From Flexibacter sp. CG_4_10_14_3_um_filter_32_15 (lineage in GTDB: Bacteria > Bacteroidota > Bacteroidia > Cytophagales > Bernardetiaceae), in the NCBI GenBank assembly GCA_002784125.1, contig PFKD01000287.1, positions 1-41,890 of the forward strand: a stretch of 41,890 nt of DNA, given 5' to 3'. Under the pieces are notes generated by a model. It saw only the letters and a program-made list of their open reading frames with translations, had not been told where the DNA came from and did no database searches. Below are positions 10,859-34,159 of this stretch, piece after piece; within the stretch, counting starts at the first letter, position 1, and each line of letters starts with the position of its first letter. Made by a program: the position numbers and the translations under genes.

Positions 10859-10860
10859 AA

Positions 10861-10938: not shown

Positions 10939-10966
10939 AAAAACAATACTAAAACAGCATGTAAAA

Positions 10967-14420: not shown

Positions 14421-15159
14421 TAATTTATTTTTCGTAATTCAACTTTTGGAGAACGCAAAATAATAGTATTTCCTTCTTTATAAATGATAAACTCCCTTAA
14501 ATCTTTACTGAGAAATTTAGAAAAATTTATTTGATTTGTTTTTTCGTAATGAAAAACTGTACGAATACTATTTGGTTATCTGACAATTTTTGTGATAATT
14601 TTATTTTTGGTAACACCTAATTTTAACTTGGTCTGTACCGAAGGTCTGACCAAGTTAAAATAAGCGCTGAAACAAGTAAAAATGCTTATTTTGTTCAAGT
14701 CAGACCTTCGGTACAGACTTGAACAAAATAGAAAATACATTTTAAAAATACCTACTAGTGATTTTCCACAAAAATTGTCAGATAACCTACTATTTTTATT
14801 TTCTGAATAGGTATATTTTTTTGATGTTCCTTCTAAAAAAATAGTAATTGTAATTTCCTTATCATCTATATTTCCTTTGTATTTCCCTAGTAGTTCTTCA
14901 AATAGAATTTCTTGGATTTTGGAAGATGGAGTTATAGTTTCTGAAGTTGCTGTTTCATTTTGTGAATTAGGTTGTGAAGTTGATTTTGTATTGAAATTAA
15001 AAGCATAAACCACTCCTATTATCAATAGAATATTCCTAAAACTCCTAGTATTGGATATAGATAATTTTTTTTAGTAGCTTCTTCTTTATGAGTGGTTTCT
15101 ATCTTATTTTCTACTTTTTCGGAAGTAGCTTGGCTTGTTTCACTTGGTCTATCAAACAT
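14421..15159 (-). pseudogene. Disrupted paralogue of the MFDR-type membrane protein at 17870-18343
   Basis: Starts MFDRPSETSQ (cf. MFDRTSESPQ); frameshift near 15012-15025 (frame 1 stops at 15022-15024, continues as track ORF 14576-15025); interrupted by a MITE. The remnant beyond it reads SIRTVFHYEKTNQINFSKFLSKDLREFIIYKEGNTIILRSPKVELRKIN*, similar to the intact paralogue's C-terminus. Confidence 0.88.
14574..14787. mobile_element. 214-bp MITE with 21-bp perfect TIRs and 8-bp target duplication
   Basis: GGTTATCTGACAATTTTTGTG (14574-14594) and CACAAAAATTGTCAGATAACC (14767-14787) are exact reverse complements; direct repeat TACTATTT at 14566-14573 and 14788-14795; contains family A repeat 14625-14724. 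Confidence 0.92.
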
Positions 15160-15206
15160 ATTGCTGTCTTTAAAGTTTTATTTTTGAACGAAAGTGAGAA
15201 AAATAT

Positions 15207-15923
15207 CTATTTTTTCTTTTTTCTTGTAAACCAATCTTTTATTTTTTCTCTCCAATTTTTTTCACATTTTTGGGCAACTCGTTTTGAATTTTCTTCTGTG
15301 TTTGATATATACTTCTTTTCATCTTTAATATAAAAAAATAATTCTTCTTTTTCATCTATTTTTATTTTATCAAAAAAAGCATTAATATCTAAATTTTTTT
15401 CTAATTTAAGAAAGTAGCTATAAGTAGAATCACTCAATAATTTACACATTCTAGATACTTCTATTTCTTTCTTTTGCTCTTTATAGGAAATCACTAGATG
15501 GTATTTTATATCTTCAACTAATGTAGTATCTTTTATTAATTTTTCTGAATGAAGGACTATATTAATATCTATCTTTAATGTATTTTTATTTTTGCAGCAT
15601 TTAACTATATCATCATTATTGTCAGATAAAGGATAAAGAATAATTTTGTTCTTTCCTATAAGTCTATTTTCAGGGTTTTGCTCACTAGTTACAATACTTG
15701 TTGTATCGTCTTGTATAGGGTTTTCGTCTGTTTCACTTTTACCTTCTGGAGAAATAGTAGTTGCTTGTTTAGGTTCTACTATATCTTCCGAAGAAGATGC
15801 TATTACATCTTCTTCGGAAGATATAGTTATCTTTCTTATAGCATCTCGTATGTCTACTAGAGTTTCCTTAGTACAACTACAAGTAAAAAATATCAATAAG
15901 ATAAACAGAGTATTTTTTTTCAT
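15207..15923 (-). CDS. Putative lipoprotein, unknown function
   Basis: 238 aa; lipobox-like MKKNTLFILLIFFTCSCTKE; same strand as the upstream cluster genes. Confidence 0.7.
   Translation of the reverse strand: MKKNTLFILLIFFTCSCTKETLVDIRDAIRKITISSEEDVIASSSEDIVEPKQATTISPEGKSETDENPIQDDTTSIVTSEQNPENRLIGKNKIILYPLSDNNDDIVKCCKNKNTLKIDINIVLHSEKLIKDTTLVEDIKYHLVISYKEQKKEIEVSRMCKLLSDSTYSYFLKLEKNLDINAFFDKIKIDEKEELFFYIKDEKKYISNTEENSKRVAQKCEKNWREKIKDWFTRKKKK
15778..15827. repeat. 22-bp perfect inverted repeat with 6-nt loop inside a CDS
   Basis: ACTATATCTTCCGAAGAAGATG-CTATTA-CATCTTCTTCGGAAGATATAGT. Confidence 0.85.
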
Positions 15924-15937
15924 TTTAGCTTTTAGCT

Positions 15938-17050
15938 TTAAGATTCTTTAATAGCTTTTACTAAATCGACAAGCTTATCCAGGAGAAAACTTGGATTTTC
16001 CTTCTCATCTTTTTGAATAATAGATTGTAATTTGGTACTTACTGTATTTTGACCTTGTTGCAAAATAAAATTTCGTTCAATACTTACTAATCCCTTTACT
16101 AATTCAGTAATGTCAATTTCTTTTAGTTCTTCCTCCATTAGAGAATAGAAAACTAACTTTTGCTCTATATTATTTAACTCATTCTGAATATATTTTACCG
16201 TTAATATGTTGTGTCTATATTGGTTAATAAAGGTTCGTATGATTAATGAGGTAGCGACAATTAGAGCTGTTTTTGGGAAAATTAGCCTTATTATTGTTAT
16301 TGTAGTATTGTCTGTTGCTGTTATACTTGTTTCGTTATAAAGCAGAACACAAAATACTGCAAATCCTACTGTAAATGAAAGATAGGCTGCTAGTTGGGCG
16401 TTATGTGCATCTTTTAGAAGTTGTTTTACCTCATCATAAAATCTAGACCTTACTGATTCTGTATAATAATGTACGACCTTTTTGCAATCACTAGAAGTTA
16501 CAAATTCATCTATCTCAAGATGATTCTCATTCAATTTTCCAAATATAGGTTTCCAACTTTGAGATTTTCCAGAAACAAAATAAGACAAGAAAATACCTAA
16601 ATACAACAATGCGCCACTAGCTAAAAGTGCATATACTACTATTTCAGTATTTATGACAGATGTACCTCCTTTTGGGTTTTTATAAAGATATGGATCAAGA
16701 ACAAAAAGCCAAGTGATTATAAGAGCAAAAAATATTAATAAAATAGGTAAAAAATATTTTAAAATAGATTGAAAATAGATTGAAAATAGATTGAAAAATT
16801 TGGGAGTATACTTAAATATATCTATTTGTATTCTGTTTGTGGCTGTATTTCCTTCATTTATAATTGTATTTCTTTTGTTTATAAATACATTGAAGAAAAA
16901 TAGTGCTAAAATAAAAAAACATAGAGAAGTCCATTTTAAAAATGAATATTCTGAAATAGTAAAAGAATACATAAATCCGATAAGACTTACTACTAAAAAG
17001 CCTATTCCTAAATATAAATATAAAACTGAATTTGAAGTGTTAGTATTCAT
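15938..17050 (-). CDS. Multi-pass membrane protein, unknown function
   Basis: Several hydrophobic segments (YLYLGIGFLVVSLIGFMY, FLPILLIFFALIITWLFV, YALLASGALLYLGIFLSYF, AAYLSFTVGFAVFCVLLY, FPKTALIVATSLII). Start set at MNTNTSN, just after the upstream stop. Confidence 0.75.
   Translation of the reverse strand: MNTNTSNSVLYLYLGIGFLVVSLIGFMYSFTISEYSFLKWTSLCFFILALFFFNVFINKRNTIINEGNTATNRIQIDIFKYTPKFFNLFSIYFQSILKYFLPILLIFFALIITWLFVLDPYLYKNPKGGTSVINTEIVVYALLASGALLYLGIFLSYFVSGKSQSWKPIFGKLNENHLEIDEFVTSSDCKKVVHYYTESVRSRFYDEVKQLLKDAHNAQLAAYLSFTVGFAVFCVLLYNETSITATDNTTITIIRLIFPKTALIVATSLIIRTFINQYRHNILTVKYIQNELNNIEQKLVFYSLMEEELKEIDITELVKGLVSIERNFILQQGQNTVSTKLQSIIQKDEKENPSFLLDKLVDLVKAIKES
16764..16796. repeat. 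Three tandem 11-bp units ATAGATTGAAA inside a CDS
   Basis: Direct reading; unit length not divisible by 3. Confidence 0.85.
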
Positions 17051-17054
17051 AATT

Positions 17055-17867
17055 TTAATTATCAATGTTTTTAATTTCTAAACCTGCTTTATTAGCTTTG
17101 TATGCAGCTCCTGTGTGTCCCAATTCGTTGGCTTGGATGTAAAGTTTTTGGGCTTCTTGAAGGAGTTTTTTCTTTTCTTCTTTTTTTTCTGTTTTGTTTT
17201 TGGTAAAAACGCCTGTTGTTTTGATACCCATTGCCTTATTGTATTTGTCTTCTGCTTGTTTGAATATTTTCTCGGCTTGAAGACTTTGTTCGCTTTTTTC
17301 GGCTTTTAGTTTGTTTTGTTCGGCTATTTCTAAAGCTTCTTGTTTTTGTTTTTCTATTTCAGAAATAGTTTGTTCTTTTTCCTCTATTGTCTTGGTAGCC
17401 ACTCGGTACTTTCCTGTCAGAATTTCGTTTTCTTTGTTAGCTTTCTCTAGTTTGGTATAAAGCACGCTCATTTCTCTTTTTTTACTTTCTAGAGCTGCTT
17501 TCATAGAATTTAGGTAAGAAATAAGTGCATCAACTCCTTTTACACCTGCTAAACTTTCTATTTTTTGATTGATTTGATCTATTTGATTTTCTGCTAATTT
17601 TCTGCGTGAATCAACTTGTTCTAGATACTCTGTTATTTTCTCAGTATCAAAACCTGTCAAATCATCGATAGTACTAAGTGAATCCGAATCATTCAACGAT
17701 TTCATCACACTAGAAATTTGAAGAGCTTGACTACTAAGCTCATCCATTACTAGGCGAACCTGTGCTAATTCGTCTTGACACGGCTTGCAGCTATCTTCAC
17801 TTGAACAAGAAGTGAAGATAACAACTACGAAAAGCAACAAAAAAACTTTAAATTTTATAATTAACAT
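17055..17867 (-). CDS. Coiled-coil lipoprotein
   Basis: MLIIKFKVFLLLFVVVIFTSCSSED lipobox, then extended heptad-rich region; start 17867 lies 2 nt after the upstream stop. Confidence 0.75.
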   Translation of the reverse strand: MLIIKFKVFLLLFVVVIFTSCSSEDSCKPCQDELAQVRLVMDELSSQALQISSVMKSLNDSDSLSTIDDLTGFDTEKITEYLEQVDSRRKLAENQIDQINQKIESLAGVKGVDALISYLNSMKAALESKKREMSVLYTKLEKANKENEILTGKYRVATKTIEEKEQTISEIEKQKQEALEIAEQNKLKAEKSEQSLQAEKIFKQAEDKYNKAMGIKTTGVFTKNKTEKKEEKKKLLQEAQKLYIQANELGHTGAAYKANKAGLEIKNIDN

Positions 17868-17869
17868 AG

Positions 17870-18343
17870 TTAGTTTTCTTTTTTTACTGTCCAAAAATCA
17901 TTTTTTATAAAAATAGTATTATCTTTTTTATCTAGCAAAACATTTCCTATTATTTCTTTATTAAAATTAATAGAATTAGAAGAAGGTATGTAAGTTCCTG
18001 TTCCAACGTCCAAAGGTTTTTGAGTAGTAGAAAAATTATACTCAAAACTATAAGTGATACTATCTTGTGTAGTAAGAGAAGTAATATTTATGTTTAGTAC
18101 TTTTCCACCTCCTGTATATTTTCCTTTTATATCTACAAATGGATTACTTGCAGAATTTTCTATATTATTTTTAGGAGAGTTAAAAACAAATAAAGCCAAA
18201 ACCACAATAAGGACTACAATACCACTACCGATACCTATAAATAGAAATGTTTTGTTGTTCTTAGGTGAACTGCTAGGTAAATCCTTTGCTTCATTTTTGG
18301 GAGAATTTGGTATTTGTGGACTTTCGCTTGTTCTATCAAACAT
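17870..18343 (-). CDS. Small membrane-anchored protein (MFDR type)
   Basis: 157 aa; N-terminal MFDRTSESPQ, TM TFLFIGIGSGIVVLIVVLALFVF; paralogue of pseudogene 14421-15159. Confidence 0.75.
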   Translation of the reverse strand: MFDRTSESPQIPNSPKNEAKDLPSSSPKNNKTFLFIGIGSGIVVLIVVLALFVFNSPKNNIENSASNPFVDIKGKYTGGGKVLNINITSLTTQDSITYSFEYNFSTTQKPLDVGTGTYIPSSNSINFNKEIIGNVLLDKKDNTIFIKNDFWTVKKEN

Positions 18344-18373
18344 AATTTTAGTATAAAAAGAAAGTAAAAAGAT

Positions 18374-19111
18374 TTATTGAAATTTTATTTTTGCTTTTTG
18401 TTTGACTTCCCAAACTTCTCCATTTTTGATTAAGAAACCTTTTTGTATGGTCTTTACATGAGTGGAAGAAAGAGAAGATAAACCGATTACCTCAAAGGCA
18501 AAATCAAAATCAGATAGCGAACGATAAAATGAAGTGAAAAAATTACTTGTTATGTCTCGATATGTACTAAAAATAGCTTCTGTTGCAGAAATAAGTTGAA
18601 TAACGAATAGGGTATTACTCATCGCTCTTTCTCTTCCTGTTTTTAAAAAGCTTTTTACTTTCGTATTTTCTTTTGTAATTACTTCTACATCTTTTATAGA
18701 AAGGTAACTTTTTGGATAATTTGATTCAGCTTCTATATATTTTTCTTCTAAATAGTCATTTTGATATTGGTCTGTTTTTGGTAATTCTATTTCTTCTGTA
18801 TCAATTTCTATTTCTTTCTGAATTACGATATTATCCGTTTTGACTTCTGTTTTAATTTGTTTTTCAATGATTACAGGTTTTTCCTTAGTTGCTATCATGA
18901 TTTTCATTCCTGTAATTTGAAACATTAAATCCAAAATTTTGGGTTCTTGTTTAGTCGATTTATCAAGTGTTTGATAAAATTTGTTTGCTTCTTTTATTTT
19001 TGTTTCGATGTCATATTTTTGTCCATTAATAAGATTGAGTTGATACAACGCCTTTCCTAAGTTTTGCAGACGAACTCCTTCTTTGAACTTTTGTATCTCT
19101 TCTTCTGTCAT
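18374..19111 (-). CDS. Soluble protein: helical module plus shared C-terminal domain
   Basis: 245 aa; no TM; C-terminal ~110 aa aligns with the C-termini of the next three proteins (SNTLFVIQL..., KTIQKGFLIKNGEVWEVKQKAKIKFQ). Confidence 0.8.
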   Translation of the reverse strand: MTEEEIQKFKEGVRLQNLGKALYQLNLINGQKYDIETKIKEANKFYQTLDKSTKQEPKILDLMFQITGMKIMIATKEKPVIIEKQIKTEVKTDNIVIQKEIEIDTEEIELPKTDQYQNDYLEEKYIEAESNYPKSYLSIKDVEVITKENTKVKSFLKTGRERAMSNTLFVIQLISATEAIFSTYRDITSNFFTSFYRSLSDFDFAFEVIGLSSLSSTHVKTIQKGFLIKNGEVWEVKQKAKIKFQ

Positions 19112-19136
19112 AATTTTTTAGTTTTTTAGTCAAAAA

Positions 19137-21569
19137 TTAGTGAAATTCTATTTTTGCTTTCTCTACTACTTTCCAAACATTCCTTTCTTTGATTAACTTT
19201 CCTTTTTGGATTGTTTTTACAAGCGTAGGAGCTGTAGAAGGTCTTTTCATTACATCAAAAGCAAATTCAAAATTATAGAGTGCATGATAAAATGAAGTAA
19301 AAAAATTGCTTTGCATATTTGGATACGTTTCTAGGGTAGCTTCATTTTCCGAAATCTGTTCAATAATAAAAATAGTGCTACTGACAGATTTGTTACGTCC
19401 TGTTTTCAATTCTTTTACTTTTTCTAGACTATCATTTGAAGATAAATAAAATATTTTTTTCTCAAAATCAGAAGTAATAACAGCTTCGTCTGCCGTTTCT
19501 TTTACTTCTTCCTGCGTTTCTTCAATTTTGCTTTTTTGTTGTTCCTCTACTTCTTTACTTTTTCTTATTTTGAACATCAAATCTTGAATTTGCTCATGTT
19601 GCTGAATTTTTCCGTTATTTTGTTTGTAATATTCATTGGCTTGAGCAAATTTATCTTGTGCTGACTGTTTGCTTGAAATGACAATTTCTAGTGTAGTTTT
19701 TAATTTTTCTAAATCTCTATTAAAAATTATTTCCTCTTCCTGTTCTTTTTTAATTTTTTGTTCAGCTTCTCTTGTTGCTTCTGAAATAACAGTAAATCGT
19801 TTATCATATTCGCTTTTATCCTTGATTTCTTGTTTTTCTTCTACTTCTTTATTTGATTCTATTTTTGCCATTAAAGCCTTGATGTCTTTATGCTGTTGTA
19901 TTTGAGGACTGGCTTTTTGATATTCTGCATTAGCTTGTAAAAACTTATCTTTTGCTGATTGATTTGTATTTATTAGCACTCCCAAAATACTTTTCAATTC
20001 ATATAAATGTTTATTAAATAGTATCTCTTCATCACTTTTCTGTTTTTCTGCTTGATTTGGTTTTTCTTGAATTCTGATAGGTTCAGTTACTTTTTCTATT
20101 TTAGTATTTTTATTTTTTCTAGTAGTAAAAAATACGATTAGAAAAAGGATAATGAAAACAGTTGCTGCCATTGCTATATAAATTATTTTTTTTGAATAAG
20201 GAGAAGGTGTCTCTTTAGGATAAATCTGTATAACACGCTCAAAATTTTGATTGGGAAACTCAATAGTAATTAGTTTAGTTTCTGTTTCCACTTCATAAGT
20301 TATTGATTTTCCTTTTTCGTTTTGATAGATAATTTCGTCTTCCTCTCCTACATCTTTTATTGTATAGACAAATTTAGATCCTTGACTTGATGACCTTTCT
20401 ACGCTGCCGTCTTTTTTAAAATGTTGTACCTCTCCTGTGCTGCTGCTCCTAATTGTGTACTCAAAAATATCTGCTGTAGGTGGTGGTGGTTTTGGAAGTC
20501 CTATTATCTCGACAGTAGATTTACTAATATATTTGCTATTCTTTTTTCCATTCATAAAAGGAGAAACAGTAAATTCTAATAGTGCTTCTACTTCTTTTTT
20601 TGTAGGATCATAAGTAATTCTGTATGTTATATCTTCTTCTTTTGAGTCTTTTATTTTTTTTAAAGAAAAGGCATTATCAATGTCTGTCAAATGTGGCGAA
20701 ATACTTAATCCTACATTTGCATTTTTACTATTGATTTTTACATCAATCTCTTTCTCTCCTTCTTGTAAAGTATAGGTCATACGTGAATTTTTAATTTTCT
20801 CATTATGCTCTCCTTGATTTTGATTATAACCTACTTTATTTTTTATATCATATTTTTTGTTAGGTAACTGAACAGAATAAGAATAATCAATAGAATAATT
20901 TTTAGCTATTTTTTTTAAGTATTTTTCTTTTATACGTATTAGTTTTTGCTCTAATTGCTTAGTTTCTGAATATTTTTCTGTTGCTGGCAAACGATAATAA
21001 TTATGACTTCCATTAAGCTCTTTTTGTATAATACTATTGTATTGCCCTATCTGTGTAATTGCAGTTTGAGTAACATCGCCAAGGAGCGTTTCGATATCTT
21101 GAAACGTATTTACTTCATTTATGTCTTCTCTATGTTCATAGATTTTATCGACAATATTTTTATCTGTTACTCCGTCACGCTTTCTATAATCATCAAAAAT
21201 AGCTGCTACTACTTTTTTTGCAGTTGAATAACCTACTTTAGGTCTTAGTTTTTTTATATCCTTATAAGTTGGGTTTGTCTTCGGGAAAAGATTATCATCA
21301 AGCTGACTTGCTCCATCTAAATTTTTTCTTTCAGAAGCATAATTCAAAATATAATACACCAACTCAAAATCTATTTCTAAAATAGCTTGTTCTAGTTGTT
21401 CATTTATTTCTTGCTTAGAATAGGGGGCTTCATTTTGAGCATAGCAAAAACTTCCTGACCAAAAAAAAATCAAGCTACTCAAAAAGGCTATTACATAAAG
21501 TTTGTTTTTTACTAGATTTTGGATAAACACTAATAAAAACGTCCTTTCATTTTTTGTTCTACTTCCCAT
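19137..21569 (-). CDS. Single-pass membrane protein with two helical modules and shared C-terminal domain
   Basis: 810 aa; signal-like segment VIAFLSSLIFFWSGSFCYAQ, TM IYIAMAATVFIILFLIVFF; C-terminus SSTIFIIEQ...KTIQKGKLIKERNVWKVVEKAKIEFH; overlaps the upstream CDS by 40 nt. Confidence 0.82.
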   Translation of the reverse strand: MGSRTKNERTFLLVFIQNLVKNKLYVIAFLSSLIFFWSGSFCYAQNEAPYSKQEINEQLEQAILEIDFELVYYILNYASERKNLDGASQLDDNLFPKTNPTYKDIKKLRPKVGYSTAKKVVAAIFDDYRKRDGVTDKNIVDKIYEHREDINEVNTFQDIETLLGDVTQTAITQIGQYNSIIQKELNGSHNYYRLPATEKYSETKQLEQKLIRIKEKYLKKIAKNYSIDYSYSVQLPNKKYDIKNKVGYNQNQGEHNEKIKNSRMTYTLQEGEKEIDVKINSKNANVGLSISPHLTDIDNAFSLKKIKDSKEEDITYRITYDPTKKEVEALLEFTVSPFMNGKKNSKYISKSTVEIIGLPKPPPPTADIFEYTIRSSSTGEVQHFKKDGSVERSSSQGSKFVYTIKDVGEEDEIIYQNEKGKSITYEVETETKLITIEFPNQNFERVIQIYPKETPSPYSKKIIYIAMAATVFIILFLIVFFTTRKNKNTKIEKVTEPIRIQEKPNQAEKQKSDEEILFNKHLYELKSILGVLINTNQSAKDKFLQANAEYQKASPQIQQHKDIKALMAKIESNKEVEEKQEIKDKSEYDKRFTVISEATREAEQKIKKEQEEEIIFNRDLEKLKTTLEIVISSKQSAQDKFAQANEYYKQNNGKIQQHEQIQDLMFKIRKSKEVEEQQKSKIEETQEEVKETADEAVITSDFEKKIFYLSSNDSLEKVKELKTGRNKSVSSTIFIIEQISENEATLETYPNMQSNFFTSFYHALYNFEFAFDVMKRPSTAPTLVKTIQKGKLIKERNVWKVVEKAKIEFH

Positions 21570-23479
21570 ATATCATTTCTTTTTATTAGTTTTCCTTTTT
21601 CAAGTGTTTCGCAGTGTTTAGGGTGTGCTGTGCTATTCAAATCTAAAATAGCAATTCCGTATAAGTAATCTAAAGACCTAAACATAACTTCAAAACCAGT
21701 AGGTCTAATATCATCATGAAGAAAAAGTTCTCCATATTCTACTCCGTTTTTTGTAAAAGACTTTATTACAAAAATAGTATTGCTTGCTGGTCTCTTACGT
21801 CCTTCCTTTATTCCTCCATCGTTGGTAATATCTCTTAGAGAAATATAAGAATCATCATGATAAACAATAACAGGCTCTGCTTTCGTTTCTTTTTTAGTTT
21901 GGTTTGATACTTCTTTCTTTTCATTTGGAATAAAATTAAACTCACTATCAGTTCCACCAAAAAAAGAATTTTCTGTTTCTTTTTCTGTTTCTGCAATTTC
22001 ATTTTTAGGTTCTTGTTTTTCTTCTGCTTCTTTATTTGACTTTATTTTTGCTATTAAAGCTTTTACGTCTTCATTCTGTTGTACTTTGCCATTATATTTT
22101 CGGCACTCTTCATTAGCTTGAGAAAATTTATCTTTTGCTGATTGTTTTGTTTTGATTAGCATACCCAAAACAGTTTTCAATTCTAGTAAATCTGCATTGT
22201 AAGACATTTCTTCTTCATTGTGTCGTTGGCTTGTTGTTAGTTCTTGATTCGCAAGAGTATTAACAGCTATTGGTCTTATATTTTCTGTTATTACGTCTTC
22301 CCCTCTTGGATGTTCTTCTTCTCGTTTTTTAGAACCAAGTAACATAAAGGCTGAAACTAATAATAGAACAAACAAAAGACCTATTCCTCCTATCCAATAC
22401 CAAATAGTAGAGTCTTGTTCTCTTGTTATTAATGGAAGACTTTCCTCTGATTTATTTAAGTTTCTGCTATCTATTTTAATATATGATTTCTTTTCTTTAT
22501 TAGCAGAATGAGTATAACCATGGAGAGTCATTGTAACTACTTCTTGATTTCCTTTCTCTGCTTCTACTATAAAAGTTAAAATAGCTTTATCTACTTTTTC
22601 TTTACTGTATTCATATTCAATAGTTCCATAGCGAGTATTTCTATTATCTTTTTGTGCTATTAATTCTGGTCTATCTTTACTACCAATGTATTCTCTAATT
22701 ACAAAATTCGTACTATCAGTTAGAGTTTGAGAAACTAAAGTAATAGGATTATTACTTATGTTTTTGACAAAGAAATAAATTTTTCCTTTTTTTTCATCAA
22801 AAGTGAAATTATTACCTTCTTTAAAAGTGTTGGTTTCTGATAAACCTATTTTATATTTTAATTCTGCTTTTACTTCTTGTTTTGCATCAGTTTCAGTAGA
22901 AGTTGCAGCCTCATCAATAGGTTTAATACTTTTTTCAGCTATATCATTTAAAGCACTAACCAACTGCTTTTTTTGACTTGAATTGATTGTGTATGGATTA
23001 ATTCTATTCTTATCACTTGGCTCTAAAAACTTATTGTATTGGTTTATCTTCTCGCCTATAAATCTAACTAATGCTGATAAAAAAGCCTTCTTTTCTGCAT
23101 TGGTAGTAATTGGATAAGCTCTTCCATCTATTCTGTAATTATTTTTAATATTGTTTATCTGATCTACATAGTTTAAAGGTGTATTATTCTTTGAATCTTG
23201 TTTATTATGAAATATTATATTTAATGCTTGTGATTTTATATTAGTTATGTTCTTTGCTGCTTCATAGTCTTGTTTTGTACCAAACTCTATTCCTTTCAGA
23301 TAAGTACCTTTTGGCGCACTAACTACATTGTGCCTATACATGCTATATGCAAACTTATAATTTATTTTATCTATTGCATTATTTATTATCTCTTTGTCTT
23401 GTGAGGTCTGCCCAAAAACAGCAGAACCCCAAAACAAAGCAGCTAAAAAAAATACCAAAAAAGTATGGACTGGTTTCAT
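21530..23479 (-). CDS. Single-pass membrane protein with shared C-terminal domain (paralogue of next)
   Basis: 649 aa; signal peptide MKPVHTFLVFFLAALFWGSAVFGQ; TM IWYWIGGIGLLFVLLLVSAFML; C-terminus SNTIFVIKS...LEKGKLIKRNDIWEVEQKMKGRFY. Confidence 0.85.
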   Translation of the reverse strand: MKPVHTFLVFFLAALFWGSAVFGQTSQDKEIINNAIDKINYKFAYSMYRHNVVSAPKGTYLKGIEFGTKQDYEAAKNITNIKSQALNIIFHNKQDSKNNTPLNYVDQINNIKNNYRIDGRAYPITTNAEKKAFLSALVRFIGEKINQYNKFLEPSDKNRINPYTINSSQKKQLVSALNDIAEKSIKPIDEAATSTETDAKQEVKAELKYKIGLSETNTFKEGNNFTFDEKKGKIYFFVKNISNNPITLVSQTLTDSTNFVIREYIGSKDRPELIAQKDNRNTRYGTIEYEYSKEKVDKAILTFIVEAEKGNQEVVTMTLHGYTHSANKEKKSYIKIDSRNLNKSEESLPLITREQDSTIWYWIGGIGLLFVLLLVSAFMLLGSKKREEEHPRGEDVITENIRPIAVNTLANQELTTSQRHNEEEMSYNADLLELKTVLGMLIKTKQSAKDKFSQANEECRKYNGKVQQNEDVKALIAKIKSNKEAEEKQEPKNEIAETEKETENSFFGGTDSEFNFIPNEKKEVSNQTKKETKAEPVIVYHDDSYISLRDITNDGGIKEGRKRPASNTIFVIKSFTKNGVEYGELFLHDDIRPTGFEVMFRSLDYLYGIAILDLNSTAHPKHCETLEKGKLIKRNDIWEVEQKMKGRFY

Positions 23480-23494
23480 TGAAATTGATTTTTC

Positions 23495-25714: not shown

Positions 25715-25745
25715 TTTAATTTTATGTTAGATAGGTAAGCCAAAA

Positions 25746-25783
25746 TACCCTAAGCATCATCAAAAGATAAAATACTTAGGGTA
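25746..25783 (-). promoter_or_regulatory. Intercistronic hairpin
   Basis: TACCCTAAG (25746-25754) / CTTAGGGTA (25775-25783) between the Hsp70-like gene and the receptor-like genes; no obvious long T-run. Confidence 0.5.
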
Positions 25784-25800
25784 GTAATTGAAAGTGAGTA

Positions 25801-28800
25801 TTATGCGTTTAATTTTGTTTGTGCCATAGCCAAAGCCCAATCTCTAATAATTACACGCAGAGGATAGAAAAAGAAGGATTCTCTTACAGGCGTATAACCA
25901 CCATCAGAAGCATTTTTACGCTCATAAATCATTCCTTTTGCTAGTTCTTTCTGCTTGATGCTTTTGAATCCTTTTTCAAAATTTGTAAGGTTTGTTTCTA
26001 TGTTGTAGAATTCAAAACGAGTTTCAGGGTTTTTATTCATACTCAAAAAGATTTCTAAAAACTGATCTAAATTTTTATCTATTCTTAGAGCAAGTTCTCC
26101 TCCTTCTTTTGTGAATTTACCATCTTGTTCGATAAGGTCTTCATAAGTAAGCTGACGATTAGGCAACAAATCGCTTTTCTTTGCATCTATTTCTCCTAAG
26201 AATATAGTATTAATATCTTCTCCTAAGTTTATATTTTTATAAGCTGTAGAAAAGCTATGAATTCCTCCAAAACAAGTAGCTTCTTTTGGTTCTTGAGTTA
26301 CATGCAAATTGATTGTTCCATCATACTGATCTTCAATAGAACTACTACCACTTTCGTCCAAAGAGCCATCTAAGAACGGATTGTAATCTTTTTCTTGCAC
26401 CTGCTGTTCTTCTTGATTTTCTTTTTGTTCTTTTGCTTCAATTTTCAAATCTTTGTATTTGTCATACACCTTCTTAGCAAAAATTTCGGTAAACTTTTGT
26501 ATGTTCTTTTTGTCTTTGGTTACATCTAAGAAATTAAGGTATTTCGAACCTGTACCACTAAAACAAAAGTCTTTTGGGTAAGGCATTCCCTTAATAGCCA
26601 AAAGCTGAACGGCATGATAAATACAAGCTGCATAATGCAATAAGAAAAGCAATAATATATCTTGATCTTCACTCAACTGCTTATCAAAGTCTATGTTTTT
26701 GGCAGAATACATAAAACTTGCTTTATCGGAAGAACTAAAGCGACCACTTTCCATAATTTCGTTGAAAATTATTTCTAATCGTGATCCTTCTGCTTGACTA
26801 ATTCCCTGTTTGGTAAGTTCAATTTTATTTTTAAACCAGTTACGGTATCTTGAAACTATACCCCCTTCTGTTTCTAGGCTTGGGTCTTTTGTGTCTTTTC
26901 CTTCGTAGAGTGTATTTGCTCCAAAATAAGCAGAAGTAGCAATTTTAGTTCTTCCTCCATTAGAAACTAAGGCAATATCTGTCGAACCTCCTCCAATATC
27001 TATTGAAACTACGGAAGAACTCTTTTCTACTTTTCCTTTTGCACGATAATAGAAATAAGGAGCTTCTGATTCGTTCATCAAATGGACATCTACTGATTTG
27101 CTTATTATTTCCTTAGATTTATTTTCCCACAAATTATTGAGGTTGTCAGTAAGGCGTTTTGGCAAACTAAGAGGCTTAAACCAAATTAATTTTGTTCGTG
27201 ATAAATCTCCACCATTCAGAAGTATCTTGTTTCTAATCATGTGGAGTAGTTGTTCTATAAAAACTTCTACTAGCTTAGAATTATCAGCCGACCATTTTAA
27301 GTTTGTTGTTACTCTTTGCGAATGTCTATCTATGTCCAAATAATCTTTTTCATATAGAAAACTGATAGATGAATTGAGCAAAGGATCAAACTTGACATCA
27401 GAAGCGTGAATTAAAGCAGTACGAATAGGAAAGGCATTTCGCCAGTTGCCATAGTTGGATTCTTGTGCTGGTGGATTTCCAATAAGATTAGGCATAAACA
27501 TACGATCTTGAAAGAAAGTAGTCGCTAGTCCGATAGCATTATCATCAAAATCATATCTATCTAGCATGACATGGTTTTTGTCAGCCGTAGGTTTGTTGAG
27601 TGTAACAGTTTGCATATCATCTTCCCCTATAAAGAAAGGATAAGTTTGGATATTTCCTTCTGTTGCAGTATTGCTATCTGTAAAAGCAACGAAACTATTT
27701 GTAGTTCCGAAATCTACAGCTACTGTAAACTGTTTTGGATTGCTTCCTTGTTGTATTGGTTTCTTCCATCTAGGCAAAATCCAGCCTTTTGCTCTGCTCC
27801 CTGTTTTTCCTCTGTAAGGAGTTACTATTTCGATAGCATCAAATGCACACCCTGAAACTGAAAATACAGATAAATGTGAACCTTCTACGTTGCGTTCGAA
27901 TCTACTTATTTTCTGAATAGCAGCATCACTTGTTTCAATAGCCTTTTCTTCATTGTAGGCGTTTAGGCTATATGCTTCTACATTATCTAGCTTAGAAGAC
28001 AGAAGCATGATTTTGTACATAGTATCATTAGCTGCATTTCCAGTACGTATAAATGGGTAAATGCTAATAGAAAAAGGCGAAGGAATATCTTCCATAGTTT
28101 CGTCTTTTCCGTCATCTACTAAATTGATTATTTTTCCGTTGTTATCATTTCTAGGTTTTCCATAATCGTAATAACGAGTAAAAGTCAGATACGATTTTCC
28201 TTCTTCCTCTGTTCCTTTTATTGGTACTCTTAATCGTACTCGTATAGCTCCTTCATTAGAATCTGCTGTTTCGATAGTAAGGTTTTCAATGAGTGTCTCT
28301 TCATCAAAAAACTTGAAATACAAATCCGTAACAGGTAAAAGAAAATCTATATTAGAATCGTGTATGTGATTTTTAGGAACTACAAAACGCTCATCATTAA
28401 TACGATACGGCATACGGATAAGATCTTCTGCTAATAAATCTGTCGTTACCAAATACGGATAACCAAATCCAACCTCTGGAAGATTTCTATCCGACCAGTT
28501 TTCTTTTGGTAATGAGAAAGGAACTTTTGTTTTGTTGCTCCATTCTTTATCTCTAAAGTATTTGAAAGCAGGATTTTCATATCCTTCTTGCAAGACTAAA
28601 GGCAATACTTTTTGTCCTCCTTGTGTTTCTAAAAGAGCTGTTTTTTCTTTTGATTTACTTGGTTTTATCAAATAACTACTCTTTAAGTTGCCATCTGTAA
28701 TAATAGGCGCACAACTTTTCCATGCTACCTTTTCTATACGTGGCGTTTTTCCATCAATGATTACATCATTATAATCTGCATTGAAAGCTCCTAAAGTAGA

Positions 28801-29601
28801 AGTTTCCTCATAAATATCTTTTATTATATCCCCCTTTTTACTGTGATACTTATCCCTTTGGATACGCATATATTCATGAACGTTATCCATTTGATTGAGC
28901 ATATTTTTGTGCAAATGGAAAAGACGATGAACATAGATTTGAAATTCTTCTGAACGTTGGTGCAATGCTCTAATTCCTGTAAACATATCCCTGCCATCTA
29001 TCGTCTTGACACCACTTATGAGTTCTTTATCTACCTTTGGCGCAAGGAAAGCAAAGGTAAGAGGAGAAGTTGCTACGATAGGAGTTGTATCATACGTCAA
29101 GATGTACATATTAGGCGTTTTGCGTTCTCCTTGCATATTTTTTGCGAAAGGAGAAAGATCACCTGTAAAGAGTTCGATAGTTTTTCCTAATAATTGGTGT
29201 CCGTCGTTCTCCGAACTTCTTAGTGATTTTATACGCTCATCTATATTCCATTCTATGATAGCAAAATGTTCTTCTTTATCTGCTTGAAGATGCTCTCTAA
29301 GATTATAAATAAGGTCTATCGCATCAAGACATTCAGAAACAAGTTGATTATAAATAGTTTGTCCTTCGTGTCCTAACTCTTTACGGTTTACCATTTTGAA
29401 GGCAATATCGTAAAGGTGCATTTGTGCAAAAGGCGTAGGAATTGAACTCGGTGGAATAGCTACTTTTGAGCCATTTGGATCTTCTATTTCTTCTATACGA
29501 GAAGAATTATAAATAACGGTTTCGTGCCAGCCTTTTTTATCTGTACTTCTTTCTTGGCGTAGCGTAAGTAAATGACGACTTTCTGGAATTTGTAATGCCA
29601 T
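25801..29601 (-). CDS. Hsp70/actin-like ATPase with long N-terminal extension
   Basis: 1266 aa; phosphate-1 FTVAVDFGTTNSFVAFTD (~aa 622 on), phosphate-2 SSVVSIDIGGGSTDIALVSNGG, adenosine-like FCFSGTGSKYLNF. Confidence 0.88.
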   Translation of the reverse strand: MALQIPESRHLLTLRQERSTDKKGWHETVIYNSSRIEEIEDPNGSKVAIPPSSIPTPFAQMHLYDIAFKMVNRKELGHEGQTIYNQLVSECLDAIDLIYNLREHLQADKEEHFAIIEWNIDERIKSLRSSENDGHQLLGKTIELFTGDLSPFAKNMQGERKTPNMYILTYDTTPIVATSPLTFAFLAPKVDKELISGVKTIDGRDMFTGIRALHQRSEEFQIYVHRLFHLHKNMLNQMDNVHEYMRIQRDKYHSKKGDIIKDIYEETSTLGAFNADYNDVIIDGKTPRIEKVAWKSCAPIITDGNLKSSYLIKPSKSKEKTALLETQGGQKVLPLVLQEGYENPAFKYFRDKEWSNKTKVPFSLPKENWSDRNLPEVGFGYPYLVTTDLLAEDLIRMPYRINDERFVVPKNHIHDSNIDFLLPVTDLYFKFFDEETLIENLTIETADSNEGAIRVRLRVPIKGTEEEGKSYLTFTRYYDYGKPRNDNNGKIINLVDDGKDETMEDIPSPFSISIYPFIRTGNAANDTMYKIMLLSSKLDNVEAYSLNAYNEEKAIETSDAAIQKISRFERNVEGSHLSVFSVSGCAFDAIEIVTPYRGKTGSRAKGWILPRWKKPIQQGSNPKQFTVAVDFGTTNSFVAFTDSNTATEGNIQTYPFFIGEDDMQTVTLNKPTADKNHVMLDRYDFDDNAIGLATTFFQDRMFMPNLIGNPPAQESNYGNWRNAFPIRTALIHASDVKFDPLLNSSISFLYEKDYLDIDRHSQRVTTNLKWSADNSKLVEVFIEQLLHMIRNKILLNGGDLSRTKLIWFKPLSLPKRLTDNLNNLWENKSKEIISKSVDVHLMNESEAPYFYYRAKGKVEKSSSVVSIDIGGGSTDIALVSNGGRTKIATSAYFGANTLYEGKDTKDPSLETEGGIVSRYRNWFKNKIELTKQGISQAEGSRLEIIFNEIMESGRFSSSDKASFMYSAKNIDFDKQLSEDQDILLLFLLHYAACIYHAVQLLAIKGMPYPKDFCFSGTGSKYLNFLDVTKDKKNIQKFTEIFAKKVYDKYKDLKIEAKEQKENQEEQQVQEKDYNPFLDGSLDESGSSSIEDQYDGTINLHVTQEPKEATCFGGIHSFSTAYKNINLGEDINTIFLGEIDAKKSDLLPNRQLTYEDLIEQDGKFTKEGGELALRIDKNLDQFLEIFLSMNKNPETRFEFYNIETNLTNFEKGFKSIKQKELAKGMIYERKNASDGGYTPVRESFFFYPLRVIIRDWALAMAQTKLNA

Positions 29602-29637
29602 AATAATAGTATAATAGAATAGTTAAGGTGTGAAAAA

Positions 29638-31098
29638 TTATATTCTGAAATAGTCTTGATAAATAACATCAGTAGCTTTGTCCATAAGTTCGAGAACTCT
29701 ATCAAAGCCTTTTTCATCTTTTTGTACTTTCCTTATTTGAGAATTAAGAATGACATTGATTTTATCATCAGACAGGCGTTTGGGAATTATCTTATCCATC
29801 AAGCCTTTTTTCATTACCGACCCATGATTTACTACCCATTCATTAATATCTTGACTGACATCAAAAGGCAAAAATTTTCTTTCTTTTACTCCTAGTTCTT
29901 TTATCCAGTTGTTATAATCCTTTAAGAATTTTACTAGAGGTTCGAATTCTCCATTTCCTTTTTTAAAAGCCTGTTCGTGTTGATCCCCTAGAGCTTCTAT
30001 AAACCAAGGCTGGCTAGATGAAGAAGGGCCTAAATTATTATAGATATAAGATAAGAAAAGATTTTTAATTAGAGGTTTGTGGACTAGTGCTTTTGTATGA
30101 TCATCTAAGTCATACAAAGAAAGCTCATTTCTATTTCCATTTATAGCACACTCATGAAAATTTCCATCTCTAAGCGTAGAAGCTACTCCCAAATCATATC
30201 TTTTAGTAGAATCAGCAAAATCAATAATTCCCATAGCAGACATCATTTCTACCAAATGAGAAGCATTTTCTTGTTTTGTTTCATCATTATTGTGCATAGC
30301 CAACTGACTGTCAGCTATATAATAAAGTTCATCTACTCCCTTTAATTGCCCTTCATAAAAAGAAAGTGCTGCCTTTGTTTTGGTAATAAAGGAATTAGAA
30401 TCAATATAGCTTTCGCCATTCTCATTGAGTTTGAAATAAGGCATTACACTAACTGCCCCCTTTACGGCTTTTTGAATATTATCTCCTGCTGTTTGCAAGT
30501 TTTTGAGAAGGAGAGGAAAACCAGATGCTCCTGTTCCACCAAAAATAGAACTCACCATAAAAATTTTGTCGCCTGTATTAAAAACACGTTTGAAGAACTT
30601 AAACTCTTCTGAATCTTCTAGTTTGTTTAAGATAATACTTCCCATACTTGGATTACCACGAAAACCTACTGCCATTTCGCTTTTTCTATCTTTTTCTGAA
30701 AAAAACATAGATACAAAGCTTTGATCTATTGTAGGCATGTCTTTATTGTAGCCTATAAATTCTTCAAAAGTATTTTTGGCATATTTACTAAAACTAAGAC
30801 CAAAAGAATTATCTATATCCTCTGTGTCTTTGATAGTATCGCTGTGAAGTTTTCCTAAAGGTAAAATTTCAGTAGAAAAAAATGAAGCTCTTGTACTTTT
30901 ACTATGTTGATACATCTTTTCATACTGTTCTAACATCATACTTACCTTTCTGTACTCATCGCTTGTTTCATGTGGATCGATAAGAATAGGAATTACCCTT
31001 TCTGCATTTATTTTTACTCCTGAAGAAAGTAGCATAATTAGAGATTTGACTACTCTAGTTCCTGTGCCACCGATTCCAAATATAAAGAGATTTTTCAT
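29638..31098 (-). CDS. Tubulin/FtsZ-superfamily-like protein
   Basis: 486 aa; N-terminal MKNLFIFGIGGTGTRVVKSL and tubulin-signature-like FMVSSIFGGTGASGFPLLLKNL. Confidence 0.8.
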   Translation of the reverse strand: MKNLFIFGIGGTGTRVVKSLIMLLSSGVKINAERVIPILIDPHETSDEYRKVSMMLEQYEKMYQHSKSTRASFFSTEILPLGKLHSDTIKDTEDIDNSFGLSFSKYAKNTFEEFIGYNKDMPTIDQSFVSMFFSEKDRKSEMAVGFRGNPSMGSIILNKLEDSEEFKFFKRVFNTGDKIFMVSSIFGGTGASGFPLLLKNLQTAGDNIQKAVKGAVSVMPYFKLNENGESYIDSNSFITKTKAALSFYEGQLKGVDELYYIADSQLAMHNNDETKQENASHLVEMMSAMGIIDFADSTKRYDLGVASTLRDGNFHECAINGNRNELSLYDLDDHTKALVHKPLIKNLFLSYIYNNLGPSSSSQPWFIEALGDQHEQAFKKGNGEFEPLVKFLKDYNNWIKELGVKERKFLPFDVSQDINEWVVNHGSVMKKGLMDKIIPKRLSDDKINVILNSQIRKVQKDEKGFDRVLELMDKATDVIYQDYFRI

Positions 31099-31145
31099 GT
31101 ATTATTTTTTTATAATTAATTATATTGACTTAATATTTTTTTTAT

Positions 31146-31553
31146 CTAAAAAGGAGATTTTCTTCCATTTGGAGAAAACCATTTAAAAATCATAGAAAAT
31201 ACAAAGAATAGAATAAAGGCATAGACCAAATTAAGTACTGCATACCATAACGATAAAGTAAGTACTTGCTTAAACATCGCAGGAAAAGCTGCATAGACAA
31301 TAATAAAAGCTACTATTCCACAAATAAATCCATTCAAAAGAAATGTTCTGAACCAGCTTCCCCCACTATTGTAAGAAGAGTACATTTTATTGAAAAAGAA
31401 ATAAAACAGTAGTGTAGAAACTAATGATATAGCAATAATAAGCCATAAAGTAAGTGGAAATACATCGTTTCTCCATGGAGTAACAGTATTAGAGGGGATT
31501 TGAGCTACTTCTCTCAAAAACTTTTCAAAAATGGTCATTACAAAATCTCTCAT
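31146..31553 (-). CDS. Small multi-pass membrane protein
   Basis: 135 aa with three to four hydrophobic segments (LTLWLIIAISLVSTLLFYFFF, TFLLNGFICGIVAFIIVYAAF, WYAVLNLVYAFILFFVFSMIF). Confidence 0.75.
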   Translation of the reverse strand: MRDFVMTIFEKFLREVAQIPSNTVTPWRNDVFPLTLWLIIAISLVSTLLFYFFFNKMYSSYNSGGSWFRTFLLNGFICGIVAFIIVYAAFPAMFKQVLTLSLWYAVLNLVYAFILFFVFSMIFKWFSPNGRKSPF

Positions 31554-31574
31554 AAATTTTAATAGTTAGTTGGT

Positions 31575-32951
31575 TTACAAAGTACTCGCAGTAATAATAT
31601 ATTGGTAAGAAAATAAGATTTCGTTTTCATAAGCTTCATTGATACCTGAAAAGATTCGTTTCAAAAGAACGGTTCTTTCGCTTCGTTCTGCATCAGTTTC
31701 ATCAGATTCTGTATTCCAAGTATCTATCCATTTTGGAAGACTACTTTTGAGTTCTAGATTTATGGTAGCTTTACATGGGTCATCTACTGAAACAGTTTTT
31801 ACTTCTACGAAATGTGTATATTTTTTGGCAAGAACAACATCTTCTGGATTAATATTTTTTTTAAATTCGCTATACGTTCTGATAGTTTTTATTTGTGTAC
31901 TTGAATTTGAAGATACTGCTTTCAAGTTATCCTGCAAATAAGTTTTATTTTTGTAATAAGTAGGCAAATTATTCAAATTTAAACCAATTGTATAAGTAAG
32001 CCTTTCTCCATCTCTAATTTTACCTTCTGTAATGATATTTCCACATTCAGCTTTTCGTTGCCATATAGAAGTTTCATCTCTTCCTGATTGTGATAGAATC
32101 TCTCCTTCAATTTTTTTATAAGTTTTGCCTACGTGCAATTCTTTTAAGAAATTTATATTTTTCTCATTAATAATTTTGTCTATTTGTTCTACTAATGATT
32201 GTTCTCCCAAAACCCAAACATAATAAGGGCGTTTGTCAGAACAACAATTTAAAACTGTTTGATTGCTTACAGTATAAAACCTTCCTACAAAATCAGATTT
32301 AAAAGCATAAACAGACAGAGCCATGTTCGGGTGTTTCAAAAACATTTCTCTTAGTCTTACATTTAGAGTTCCTTCTAGATTCATCATATTAGGAGGAGAA
32401 TACAAAAAATCAGAAACAATTATACTTACATCTTCTTTCTTATTTTGATTGATTACATTTTCGACTAAGTCTGGTAATGTAGTAGTAGCTCCAAAACTGA
32501 AGTTTGCACGAGATATTTTCGAGGCTACATCATCTTTAGATTCAAATTCGATAGTAGTTTTATCATCTTTTATTCCATAGAATTTCTTAGAACTAGCATT
32601 TACATTTGTTACTAACCAAGAAAAAAGACTAGCCATATCTTTCTGAAATGAAGTAGATTTTCCTTTTTTTCCAGGCATATACCCTTTCATACTTCCTGAA
32701 ATTTCTAAATAAGTCTTTAAGTTTATTATTTTTTTAGAGGTAGTAGAAGTTGATACTTTCATACAGCCTGTACAAGGATCTATGAATTCTGCATTTTTCA
32801 CAGCTTCATCAGAGATACAGTTATCTATAACGTCAATTACGTTATCATAATCTATATCTTCTTTACTATCACAAGAAACAGATCTGCTATTACTTGAACA
32901 AGAACAAATTAGTGAAAAAATAATAATCCACAAGTAATTAGTTTTAAACAT
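31575..32951 (-). CDS. vWA-like lipoprotein with variant MIDAS
   Basis: 458 aa; lipobox IFSLICSCSS; YLEISGSMKGYM (ExSxS), ATTTLPDLVENVI, VSIIVSDFLYSPP at MIDAS-like spacing; cysteine/Asp-rich N-terminal stretch. Confidence 0.72.
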   Translation of the reverse strand: MFKTNYLWIIIFSLICSCSSNSRSVSCDSKEDIDYDNVIDVIDNCISDEAVKNAEFIDPCTGCMKVSTSTTSKKIINLKTYLEISGSMKGYMPGKKGKSTSFQKDMASLFSWLVTNVNASSKKFYGIKDDKTTIEFESKDDVASKISRANFSFGATTTLPDLVENVINQNKKEDVSIIVSDFLYSPPNMMNLEGTLNVRLREMFLKHPNMALSVYAFKSDFVGRFYTVSNQTVLNCCSDKRPYYVWVLGEQSLVEQIDKIINEKNINFLKELHVGKTYKKIEGEILSQSGRDETSIWQRKAECGNIITEGKIRDGERLTYTIGLNLNNLPTYYKNKTYLQDNLKAVSSNSSTQIKTIRTYSEFKKNINPEDVVLAKKYTHFVEVKTVSVDDPCKATINLELKSSLPKWIDTWNTESDETDAERSERTVLLKRIFSGINEAYENEILFSYQYIITASTL

Positions 32952-32963
32952 GAAAAGGTTTTG

Positions 32964-33896
32964 TTATTTATTTTTATTGAATAATGGAAGAATGTTTTGC
33001 AAAATATCATTTTTTTCTAAAATAGAAAAATGATCAGCATCATTTATTATAGTAAATCTTGCATTTACTAGATTTTTATTTCGACATACTTCTAAAGTTT
33101 GACTGTTTGTACTGGAAACTAAATCGCCTTCGTATTCTAATTCTAATAATTCCTTTGCTATATCACACAAAGAAGAACGAGCTGCAACAAAATGATAGTT
33201 TACGTCAGAAGGGTGTTCTTGCTGATTTAGAGTATGCAAAAGCCCATTATCAGTTTTTACTAAGTCAGAAATAGCTGCGCCATTCATTGCTAATGGAATT
33301 TCTTTTTGTAGTTCTGCTATCATTTCTTTGTAAAGAGTACTTCCCAAAATATTTTCTACTCCGTAGCTAAAGTTAGCCAAGTTAGTACCTTGATGTGGCG
33401 AAGCTATCGTAAGCAAATTTTTGACACAATGATAATCTTTATTATCTACCACATATTTTCTACAAATAATTCCTCCCATGCTGTAGCCCACTAGATTTAC
33501 TTTTTCTACGCCAGTTCGATATAAAATTTCTTGAATACAGTAACCTAGCTGTTCAGATAATTCTGTAATTCCTTTTGTAGAATCAGAAAAAGAAAGCGTA
33601 TAAAAGTCTTCAACACCTGTTGAATTAGTGTAAGGCTCAAAATCTACGGTTTGATTTTTAGCATTTATTGTATAATGTCCACCATACGAATGCCCTTCAC
33701 TTTGTAATTTTCCGATATACCCTACGTCTTTCCATAAAGTACTTTTACTCCCATACCCTGGTACTAGAATAACAGGTTCTGAAACAGAAGTAAACGAAGA
33801 ATCACAAGAAGATAGTAGTACAACTAATAAAATTAGATATAGGAAATAATGCTTTTTGATTTCAAACAGCTTATATGTCTTAGAAAGTAGTATCAT
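32964..33896 (-). CDS. Lipoprotein alpha/beta hydrolase (lipase-like)
   Basis: VILVPGYGSKSTLW oxyanion-type motif, VNLVGYSMGGIICRKYV nucleophile elbow, LLTIASPHQGTNLA, INDADHFSIL; lipobox LLVVLLSSCDSS; start refined to MILLSKTYKL. Confidence 0.85.
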   Translation of the reverse strand: MILLSKTYKLFEIKKHYFLYLILLVVLLSSCDSSFTSVSEPVILVPGYGSKSTLWKDVGYIGKLQSEGHSYGGHYTINAKNQTVDFEPYTNSTGVEDFYTLSFSDSTKGITELSEQLGYCIQEILYRTGVEKVNLVGYSMGGIICRKYVVDNKDYHCVKNLLTIASPHQGTNLANFSYGVENILGSTLYKEMIAELQKEIPLAMNGAAISDLVKTDNGLLHTLNQQEHPSDVNYHFVAARSSLCDIAKELLELEYEGDLVSSTNSQTLEVCRNKNLVNARFTIINDADHFSILEKNDILQNILPLFNKNK

Positions 33897-34124: not shown

Positions 34125-34159
34125 CACAAAAAAACCTTATTCTAATTAAAAGAATAAGG
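34125..34159 (-). terminator. Intrinsic terminator of nuoM
   Basis: On minus: CCTTATTCT-TTTAATT-AGAATAAGG followed by a T-run, downstream of the nuoM stop. Confidence 0.8.

Follow-up and report, generated by a model that had tools for sequence, protein, structure and literature searches.

Identification of a conserved gene cluster

The DNA analysed here, hereafter the window, was a 41,890-bp stretch (contig PFKD01000287.1, positions 1 to 41,890 of the forward strand) from Flexibacter sp. CG_4_10_14_3_um_filter_32_15 (GCA_002784125.1; Bernardetiaceae). Open reading frame (ORF) calls revealed 13 intact co-directional genes and one interrupted gene on its minus strand (14423–33896), encoding from 5′ to 3′ a lipase-like protein (LIP350), a vWA-like lipoprotein, TM135, TUB486, HSP1266, T739, T649, T810, S245, TM157, LP279, MP375 and LP238. 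This cluster is a real, conserved genetic unit and apparently an undescribed one. Five parts were recognised by comparison of related loci as its conserved core, namely the vWA-like lipoprotein, TM135, the tubulin-like protein (TUB), the actin/Hsp70-like ATPase (HSP) and a type I membrane protein whose conserved C-terminal domain lies on the cytoplasmic side. We favour, at a little better than an even chance, the reading that the window holds one lineage’s version of an envelope-spanning, nucleotide-controlled and usually ion-powered machine, which most likely serves a vegetative envelope process.

The genes were spaced by −40 to +86 bp as far as LP238, the last intact one. A terminator-like hairpin of nuoM (34135–34159, minus strand) separated nuoM from the operon on the upstream side, and the convergent coaE (13776–14411, plus strand; PF01121, E = 2.6e-47) lay at the other end, as a preliminary description of this DNA had proposed. 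That description had counted about 12 intact minus-strand genes with small gaps or overlaps, and this observation was confirmed, with 13 intact genes found. Promoter-like sites inside the operon were at the level of shuffled sequence (75 found, 88 expected), and so were terminator matches that might split it. No useful NCBIfam family was found for any core protein.

Conservation and distribution of the core

Each of the six other genomes in the genus had TUB, at 77–78% identity (7/7 including the window), and vWA, TM135 and HSP were 66–76% identical in the loci fetched from these congeners. The order of the core genes was the same in all six, and the operon ended close to coaE there too. Because the core genes were conserved throughout the genus, their association is, as judged from these sequences, not due to chance.

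When one genome of each species was scanned, relatives numbered at least 465; the 80 best loci were kept, and nearly all of these came from Bacteroidota. Gene clustering gave a fixed order of vWA, TM135, TUB, HSP, type I protein, MotA and MotB, with a trypsin-like protease next in some loci. The preliminary description had suggested a neighbourhood search for the tubulin-like/Hsp70-like pair, and the two were indeed paired in 77 of the 77 named TUB loci; MotA and MotB were neighbours in 56 of these and all seven genes were present in 47, most neighbours lying <700 bp away. Homologues of TM135 held the same operon position in 80 of 98 loci examined (window excluded).

Among 393 sampled Bacteroidota genomes TUB was detected in 13, HSP in 11 and vWA in 10, and HSP and vWA occurred only in TUB genomes, adjoining TUB. 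Two TUB genomes were without HSP: one was 13% contaminated and had a stop in the TUB frame, and in the other the match was weak and lay in a 1622-aa frame. All of the Hymenobacter genomes tested (81/81) contained TUB, and the operon flanks there recurred between species and looked like household genes. TUB and HSP were both retained in genomes with scattered genes (G013, G050, G007 and G010); in G013, a 9-Mb single-contig genome, the parts lay at three distant loci and all were kept, MotA and MotB included.

Neither a single-sequence TUB scan of viral contigs nor a search of 50,697 phage records gave a match. By searching with the TUB alignment, three IMG/VR contigs (L136, L137 and L138) with vWA-TM-TUB-HSP were found, two of them continuing with MotA-MotB; these contigs are probably of bacterial origin and wrongly filed under viruses, or else represent a carried island.

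Plasmids of Gloeothece and Picosynechococcus carried side by side the genes for vWA (467–482 aa; E = 3e-13 to 3e-17), a transmembrane (TM) protein, TUB (E = 3e-61 to 8e-66), HSP (E = 6e-18 to 1e-33) and one or two type I-like proteins, with the vWA gene on the opposite strand in Gloeothece. By these matches the cyanobacterial cluster, whose genes were annotated “hypothetical” or “tubulin-like”, is a diverged form of the same core. Profile comparison of the Bacteroidota and cyanobacterial C-terminal domains (E = 0.007 versus 0.5 for a control; E = 9e-6 for one sequence) was no more than suggestive.

The tubulin-like protein TUB486

TUB486 (29638–31098, minus strand; 486 aa), encoded by the third core gene, matched the Pfam families Tubulin (PF00091, E = 3.8e-6) and Tubulin_2 (PF13809, E = 2e-5), both slightly below the Pfam cut-offs (24.5 bits against 27 for PF13809). 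Family-wide, PF00091 matched 48 of 55 members and PF13809, weakly, 44 of 55. The glycine-rich GTP-binding motif FGGTGASG, of the GGTG(S/T/A)G type, and a GIGGTG motif were nearly invariant in the 55 members; Q276, N278, H281 and E284 were also conserved in the family and were not matched to the catalytic T7 loop. An AlphaFold2 model (pLDDT 85.9, pTM 0.90) was compared with solved structures by Foldseek, and the top matches were all tubulin, CetZ or FtsZ (E = 2e-4, prob 1.00, TM-score 0.2–0.4). On this model TUB486 is a clear but distant tubulin relative with a tubulin-type fold, in agreement with its earlier designation as tubulin-like.

Sequence comparison further places TUB486 as a divergent relative of the FtsZl1/Tubulin_2 family. 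One cyanobacterial TUB relative was above the Tubulin_2 cut-off (40.7 bits, E = 2.3e-10), and therefore the whole family is tied to FtsZl1. TUB486 was helical in the model, but a long coiled coil after the FtsZ domain was absent from its 486 aa. A separate conventional FtsZ-type gene (E = 6.5e-45) was present in the same genome.

In a tree of TUB proteins the sequences grouped broadly by family (Flavobacteriaceae, Cesiribacteraceae, Spirosomataceae and most Bacteroidales), and Bernardetia had a long stem. A tubulin-like protein from a contig labelled Acetatifactor (L088, a Bacillota metagenome-assembled genome) nested beside Bacteroidales and was likely mis-binned.

The actin/Hsp70-like ATPase HSP1266

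HSP1266 (25801–29601, minus strand; 1266 aa), the product of the fourth core gene, matched Pfam Ppx-GppA (E = 6.4e-7) and contained the motifs DFGTTNS, NESEAPY, DIGGGSTD and SGTGS. The corresponding phosphate 1, phosphate 2 and adenosine positions (D630-G632-T633-N635, E844-S845, D868-G870-G871-G872-D875 and G1016-S1019) were invariant in 25 members, and these motifs were nearly invariant in a wider alignment of 48. An HSP profile matched Hsc70 and MreB in the PDB (E = 9e-4). The structure was modelled on a full-length 1124-aa relative (pLDDT 86.3), for which the top Foldseek matches were MreB, Mbl and DnaK (E = 8e-9, prob 1.00). HSP1266 thus carries an intact ATPase domain of the actin/Hsp70 superfamily (ASKHA), as had been proposed for the 1266-aa protein. 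The domain was C-terminal (residues ~625–1266), behind ~600 residues of other sequence. HSP1266 is not an Hsp70 proper, because neither a match to PF00012 (Hsp70) nor an Hsp70 substrate-binding domain was found in it and its N-terminal half is different.

Membrane proteins and lipoproteins of the core

The first core gene (31575–32951, minus strand) encoded a 458-aa lipoprotein with the lipobox ICSC near its N-terminus. An alignment of 25 family members kept E83-x-S85-x-S87-M88, a MIDAS-like site with E for D, plus T100 and D181, and cyanobacterial relatives had the canonical DGSGSM at that site. In a profile comparison the site aligned with the MIDAS of ordinary vWA proteins (E = 0.003, versus 0.05–0.27 for controls). 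A vWA Pfam match was found in none of the 25 family members, and in a PDB profile search the sole match below 0.01 covered the N-terminal signal region and was not useful. The lipobox agrees with the earlier description of the protein as a lipoprotein, and its vWA identity is likely, not secure. The second core gene (31146–31553, minus strand) encoded the small membrane protein TM135 (135 aa), with three predicted TM helices.

The fifth core gene was present in three copies, encoding T739 (23495–25714), T649 (21530–23479) and T810 (19137–21569), all on the minus strand and assigned by TM prediction and a type I profile. T739 comprised a signal peptide, a periplasmic part, a TM segment, a coiled linker and a C-terminal domain, with TM segments predicted at 4–22 and 442–460. 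It matched the phylum-wide type I profile with E = 7.7e-8, and T810 did so with E = 4.9e-8; T649 was 60% identical to T739 across the N-terminal part. The C-terminal domain, of ~130 aa, was shared by the three proteins and the soluble S245 (18374–19111, minus strand), with pairwise E values of 4e-29 to 1e-12, as had been noticed earlier. S245 lacked a TM segment, was 35% identical to the C-terminus of T810 (E = 4e-29) and had an orthologue in six of six congeners. Phylum-wide, the same domain also formed the C-terminus of the type I protein in relatives, ending in the pattern G-x-L-x-K...W-x-V-x-x-K-x-x-x-x-F.

MotA/MotB-like motor genes in relatives

Beyond the preliminary description, most relatives add genes that, by sequence, encode a ZorAB-like ion-driven motor, and the window’s genus is without them. 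The MotB-like protein matched solved ZorB-type proteins (E = 1.1e-11 and 7e-7) and the PADLOC ZorB model (E = 7e-13), and the MotA-like protein matched ZorA (E = 3.5e-5) and Pfam MotA_ExbB. W14, D19 and T22 were invariant in the MotB helix. An Asp in the ZorB helix (D24) is needed for Zorya (PMC11890865), and D19 is taken as its equivalent. The order in L129, a remote Bacteroidota genome, was MotB, vWA, TM, TUB, HSP, a further protein and MotA, and the MotB was of OmpA type (PF00691, E = 1.2e-16).

Profile searches gave no MotA or MotB match anywhere in the window genome. In the six congeners MotA was found in none and MotB was absent from five, the sixth giving only a partial match (E = 2e-4); Hymenobacter controls were matched in both searches. 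Spirosomataceae loci were also without a MotA/MotB pair inside the operon. The plain reading is that the motor was lost in the window’s genus and in Spirosomataceae lines. The NTPase core can exist without a motor, as in Bernardetia. In Spirosomataceae-type operons (L032, L033, L108, L109 and L111), proteins of cluster k24 were encoded at the MotA/MotB position. A trypsin/DegP-like protease (cluster c14, 14 loci) often followed the motor genes, e.g. in L067, L070, L085, L096 and L099.

Comparison with described systems

The FtsZl1-vWA membrane-remodelling systems predicted by Makarova and Koonin in 2010 comprise GTPases, kinases and OmpA proteins, and Hsp70 is unmentioned there (PMC2875224). 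The present cluster resembles them in a divergent tubulin-like gene beside a vWA gene (here likely, not securely, vWA), an OmpA-type protein in some operons, a membrane setting and a separate conventional FtsZ-type gene, but differs in its ASKHA ATPase, its three-helix protein, its type I proteins, which have a C-terminal domain in common, and the lack in TUB486 of the extended coiled coil of FtsZl1. A diverged GTPase or protein kinase was found neither in the window nor among those recurrent families of the 98 loci that were recognised, only part of which were run against Pfam. The preliminary description had held that the cluster did not match these systems. This stood for the cluster as a whole, but the kinship of TUB with FtsZl1/Tubulin_2 brings the two closer than had been supposed; our best reading is that the cluster is related in part to the predicted systems and has a different core. 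A 2023 survey set Tubulin_2 proteins aside as divergent (PMC9871819).

In the GTPase-centred conflict systems of Kaur et al. (2020), from Firmicutes and Actinobacteria, GAP1/GTPase genes are accompanied by tubulin or by HSP70 as themes that do not overlap, and MotA, MotB and Zorya are absent from the text (PMC7159879). Tubulin with vWA, or HSP70, also occurs there as a partner gene; here tubulin- and HSP70-like genes occur together, without those GTPases, in Bacteroidota and cyanobacteria. Zorya requires wall binding by ZorB, ion flow and the ZorA tail (PMC11890865). The MotA/MotB proteins of most relatives resemble ZorA/ZorB in the Asp of the MotB helix, an OmpA-like wall-binding domain and a long helical MotA tail, but the present system has extra NTPases, occurs in every genome of the Hymenobacter sample instead of patchily, and lacks the motor in the window’s genus. 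PADLOC on ten window proteins gave nothing besides a weak hydrolase match, and no Zorya match to ZorC, ZorD or ZorE. In a survey from 2025 on how MotAB evolved, ZorAB is named only as remote (PMC12505986). Like MreB, FtsA and Hsp70, the HSP family has an ATPase domain in which the phosphate and adenosine motifs are conserved, and its best solved structures are MreB, Mbl and DnaK; unlike them, it is ~1100–1300 aa long with a large N-terminal region, and the Hsp70 substrate domain is missing.

The combination was undescribed in the literature found (two prediction papers and surveys), supplementary files and subscription journals lying outside the search. Tubulin-like and actin-like NTPases rarely occur in one genetic unit and, to our knowledge, never with an ion-driven stator.

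Proposed role of the cluster

In the mechanism that we propose, TUB and HSP would form a nucleotide-controlled assembly beneath the inner membrane, to which the type I proteins, by their C-terminal domains, may recruit them. The periplasmic side would involve the ectodomains of the type I proteins and the lipoprotein, the latter acting by way of its metal-site-like vWA domain. In motor-bearing lineages, the assembly would be driven or gated by peptidoglycan-binding MotB and ion flux, and the motor would be coupled to the NTPases through the long cytoplasmic tail of MotA. The extra type I copies of the window may alter inputs or anchoring. Rather than being an optional module for defence, the cluster would most likely serve a vegetative process of the envelope (remodelling, wall tension or contact sensing). 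The presence of TUB in 81/81 Hymenobacter genomes and the stable place of the cluster in Bernardetia disfavour an ordinary defence island, and therefore a vegetative envelope role is the better guess. The preliminary description had treated the whole set as a single system; a conserved set of NTPases and membrane-anchored proteins was upheld, but not all genes of the window are parts of it, only the five of the core. The findings on which that view could have failed were in its favour: the gene set was conserved, both folds were borne out and internal promoters were at shuffle level.

Several points weigh against this mechanism. The contact between the C-terminal domains and the NTPases belongs to the proposal itself, and the vWA assignment is drawn from a motif and weak profile evidence. 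Because the Foldseek TM-scores of TUB486 were low, polymerisation should not be assumed. The window’s genus is without the motor, so that a motor-driven mechanism is not the whole story there, and the sparse distribution in the phylum (~3% of the sample) means that the function is dispensable for most Bacteroidota. An experiment on any member of the cluster was not found in the literature.

A rival reading, in our view a doubtful one, is that the cluster represents the Bacteroidota branch of the membrane-remodelling FtsZl1-vWA system, in which the ASKHA ATPase stands where the GTPase would be. The weak Tubulin_2 matches, the cyanobacterial relative above the cut-off, the vWA partner and the OmpA-type MotB of L129 all fit the published gene list, but no TRAFAC GTPase or protein kinase was among the recurrent families recognised, the tubulin protein lacks the extended coiled coil and in the window falls under the Pfam cut-off, and the vesicle or remodelling function is itself only a prediction. 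It is unlikely that the cluster is instead a Zorya-like anti-phage system, in which a ZorAB-type motor senses wall perturbation, the tubulin- and Hsp70-like proteins are or deploy the effector, and the type I proteins add recognition. Such a system would account for the likeness of MotA/MotB to ZorA/ZorB, given what Zorya relies on (PMC11890865), and for the plasmid location of the cyanobacterial copies, the three IMG/VR contigs and the multiplied type I paralogues of the window; related tubulin- and Hsp70-containing GTPase systems were also predicted as conflict systems (PMC7159879). It is at odds with the presence of the cluster throughout Hymenobacter, between recurrent household-looking flanks, and in 7/7 genomes of the window’s genus at a conserved site next to coaE, as well as with the PADLOC result, the unmatched ZorC, ZorD and ZorE, the missing motor in the genus and the absence of matches among phage records.

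It is improbable that the ASKHA protein acts as a chaperone in the folding or recycling of the tubulin-like protein, playing no part in filaments or a motor, and that the membrane genes are passengers. The resemblance of the ASKHA domain to both Hsp70 and MreB and the strict TUB-HSP pairing would agree with this, but the Hsp70 Pfam match and the substrate-binding domain are missing, the ATPase domain is C-terminal after ~600 residues, and the vWA, small membrane and type I proteins recur beside TUB-HSP just as regularly.

Within the envelope-machine reading that we prefer, a wider claim is put forward tentatively, with the balance somewhat against it: that the cluster represents an undescribed class of envelope machine, combining a tubulin-family GTPase, an actin-family ATPase, a wall-anchored ion-driven motor and membrane receptors, which genera such as Hymenobacter would have as a core feature and Bernardetia would retain as a motor-less derivative. 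If true, both great cytoskeletal NTPase families would be coupled to ion-driven work, the ZorAB-type motor would be extended beyond phage defence, and the predicted FtsZl1-vWA idea would gain a concrete experimental system. The strict co-occurrence, the survival of the set after operon break-up and the Hymenobacter-wide presence make this a testable machine in culturable bacteria.

Accessory genes and neighbouring DNA

LIP350, LP279, MP375 and LP238 are accessory and were not counted as core, because 18 related loci had no counterparts of them. LIP350 (32964–33896, minus strand) is a lipase/esterase-like lipoprotein of the alpha/beta hydrolase type (PGAP1, E = 1.2e-11; Palm_thioest, E = 3e-9), which, with its lipobox, agrees with its earlier description. 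The ORF was called from a GTG at 34016; since the lipobox Cys is residue 71 of this long form, directly after a signal-like segment, the start is probably at 33896. LP279 (17055–17894) is a coiled-coil lipoprotein with a lipobox at C30, MP375 (15938–17065) a polytopic membrane protein with six TM segments and LP238 (15207–15923) a lipoprotein with a lipobox at C17, all on the minus strand. MP375 was considered as a disguised MotA and rejected, its six TM segments having a different layout and the MotA profile being unmatched.

TM157 (17870–18343, minus strand; 157 aa, single TM) belongs to the k16 family, the ancestral last gene of the operon (E = 4e-47 to a profile that includes TM157 itself). 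A second k16 copy near coaE (14423–15040, minus strand) was intact in other members of the genus and interrupted in the window, where two matching pieces in one frame (15031–14780 and 14557–14423) were split by ~220 bp of unrelated sequence (14557–14780).

Beyond coaE, at 13312–13659 (plus strand), a 576-aa Na+/H+ exchanger was reduced to its first ~100 residues, the rest being missing; these residues were 85–93% identical to intact congener copies near coaE. At 10256–13073 (plus strand) an ECF sigma factor was followed by a 349-aa protein that matched no Pfam family and by a DUF4097 toastrack protein; the three may form a unit of the sigma/anti-sigma type.

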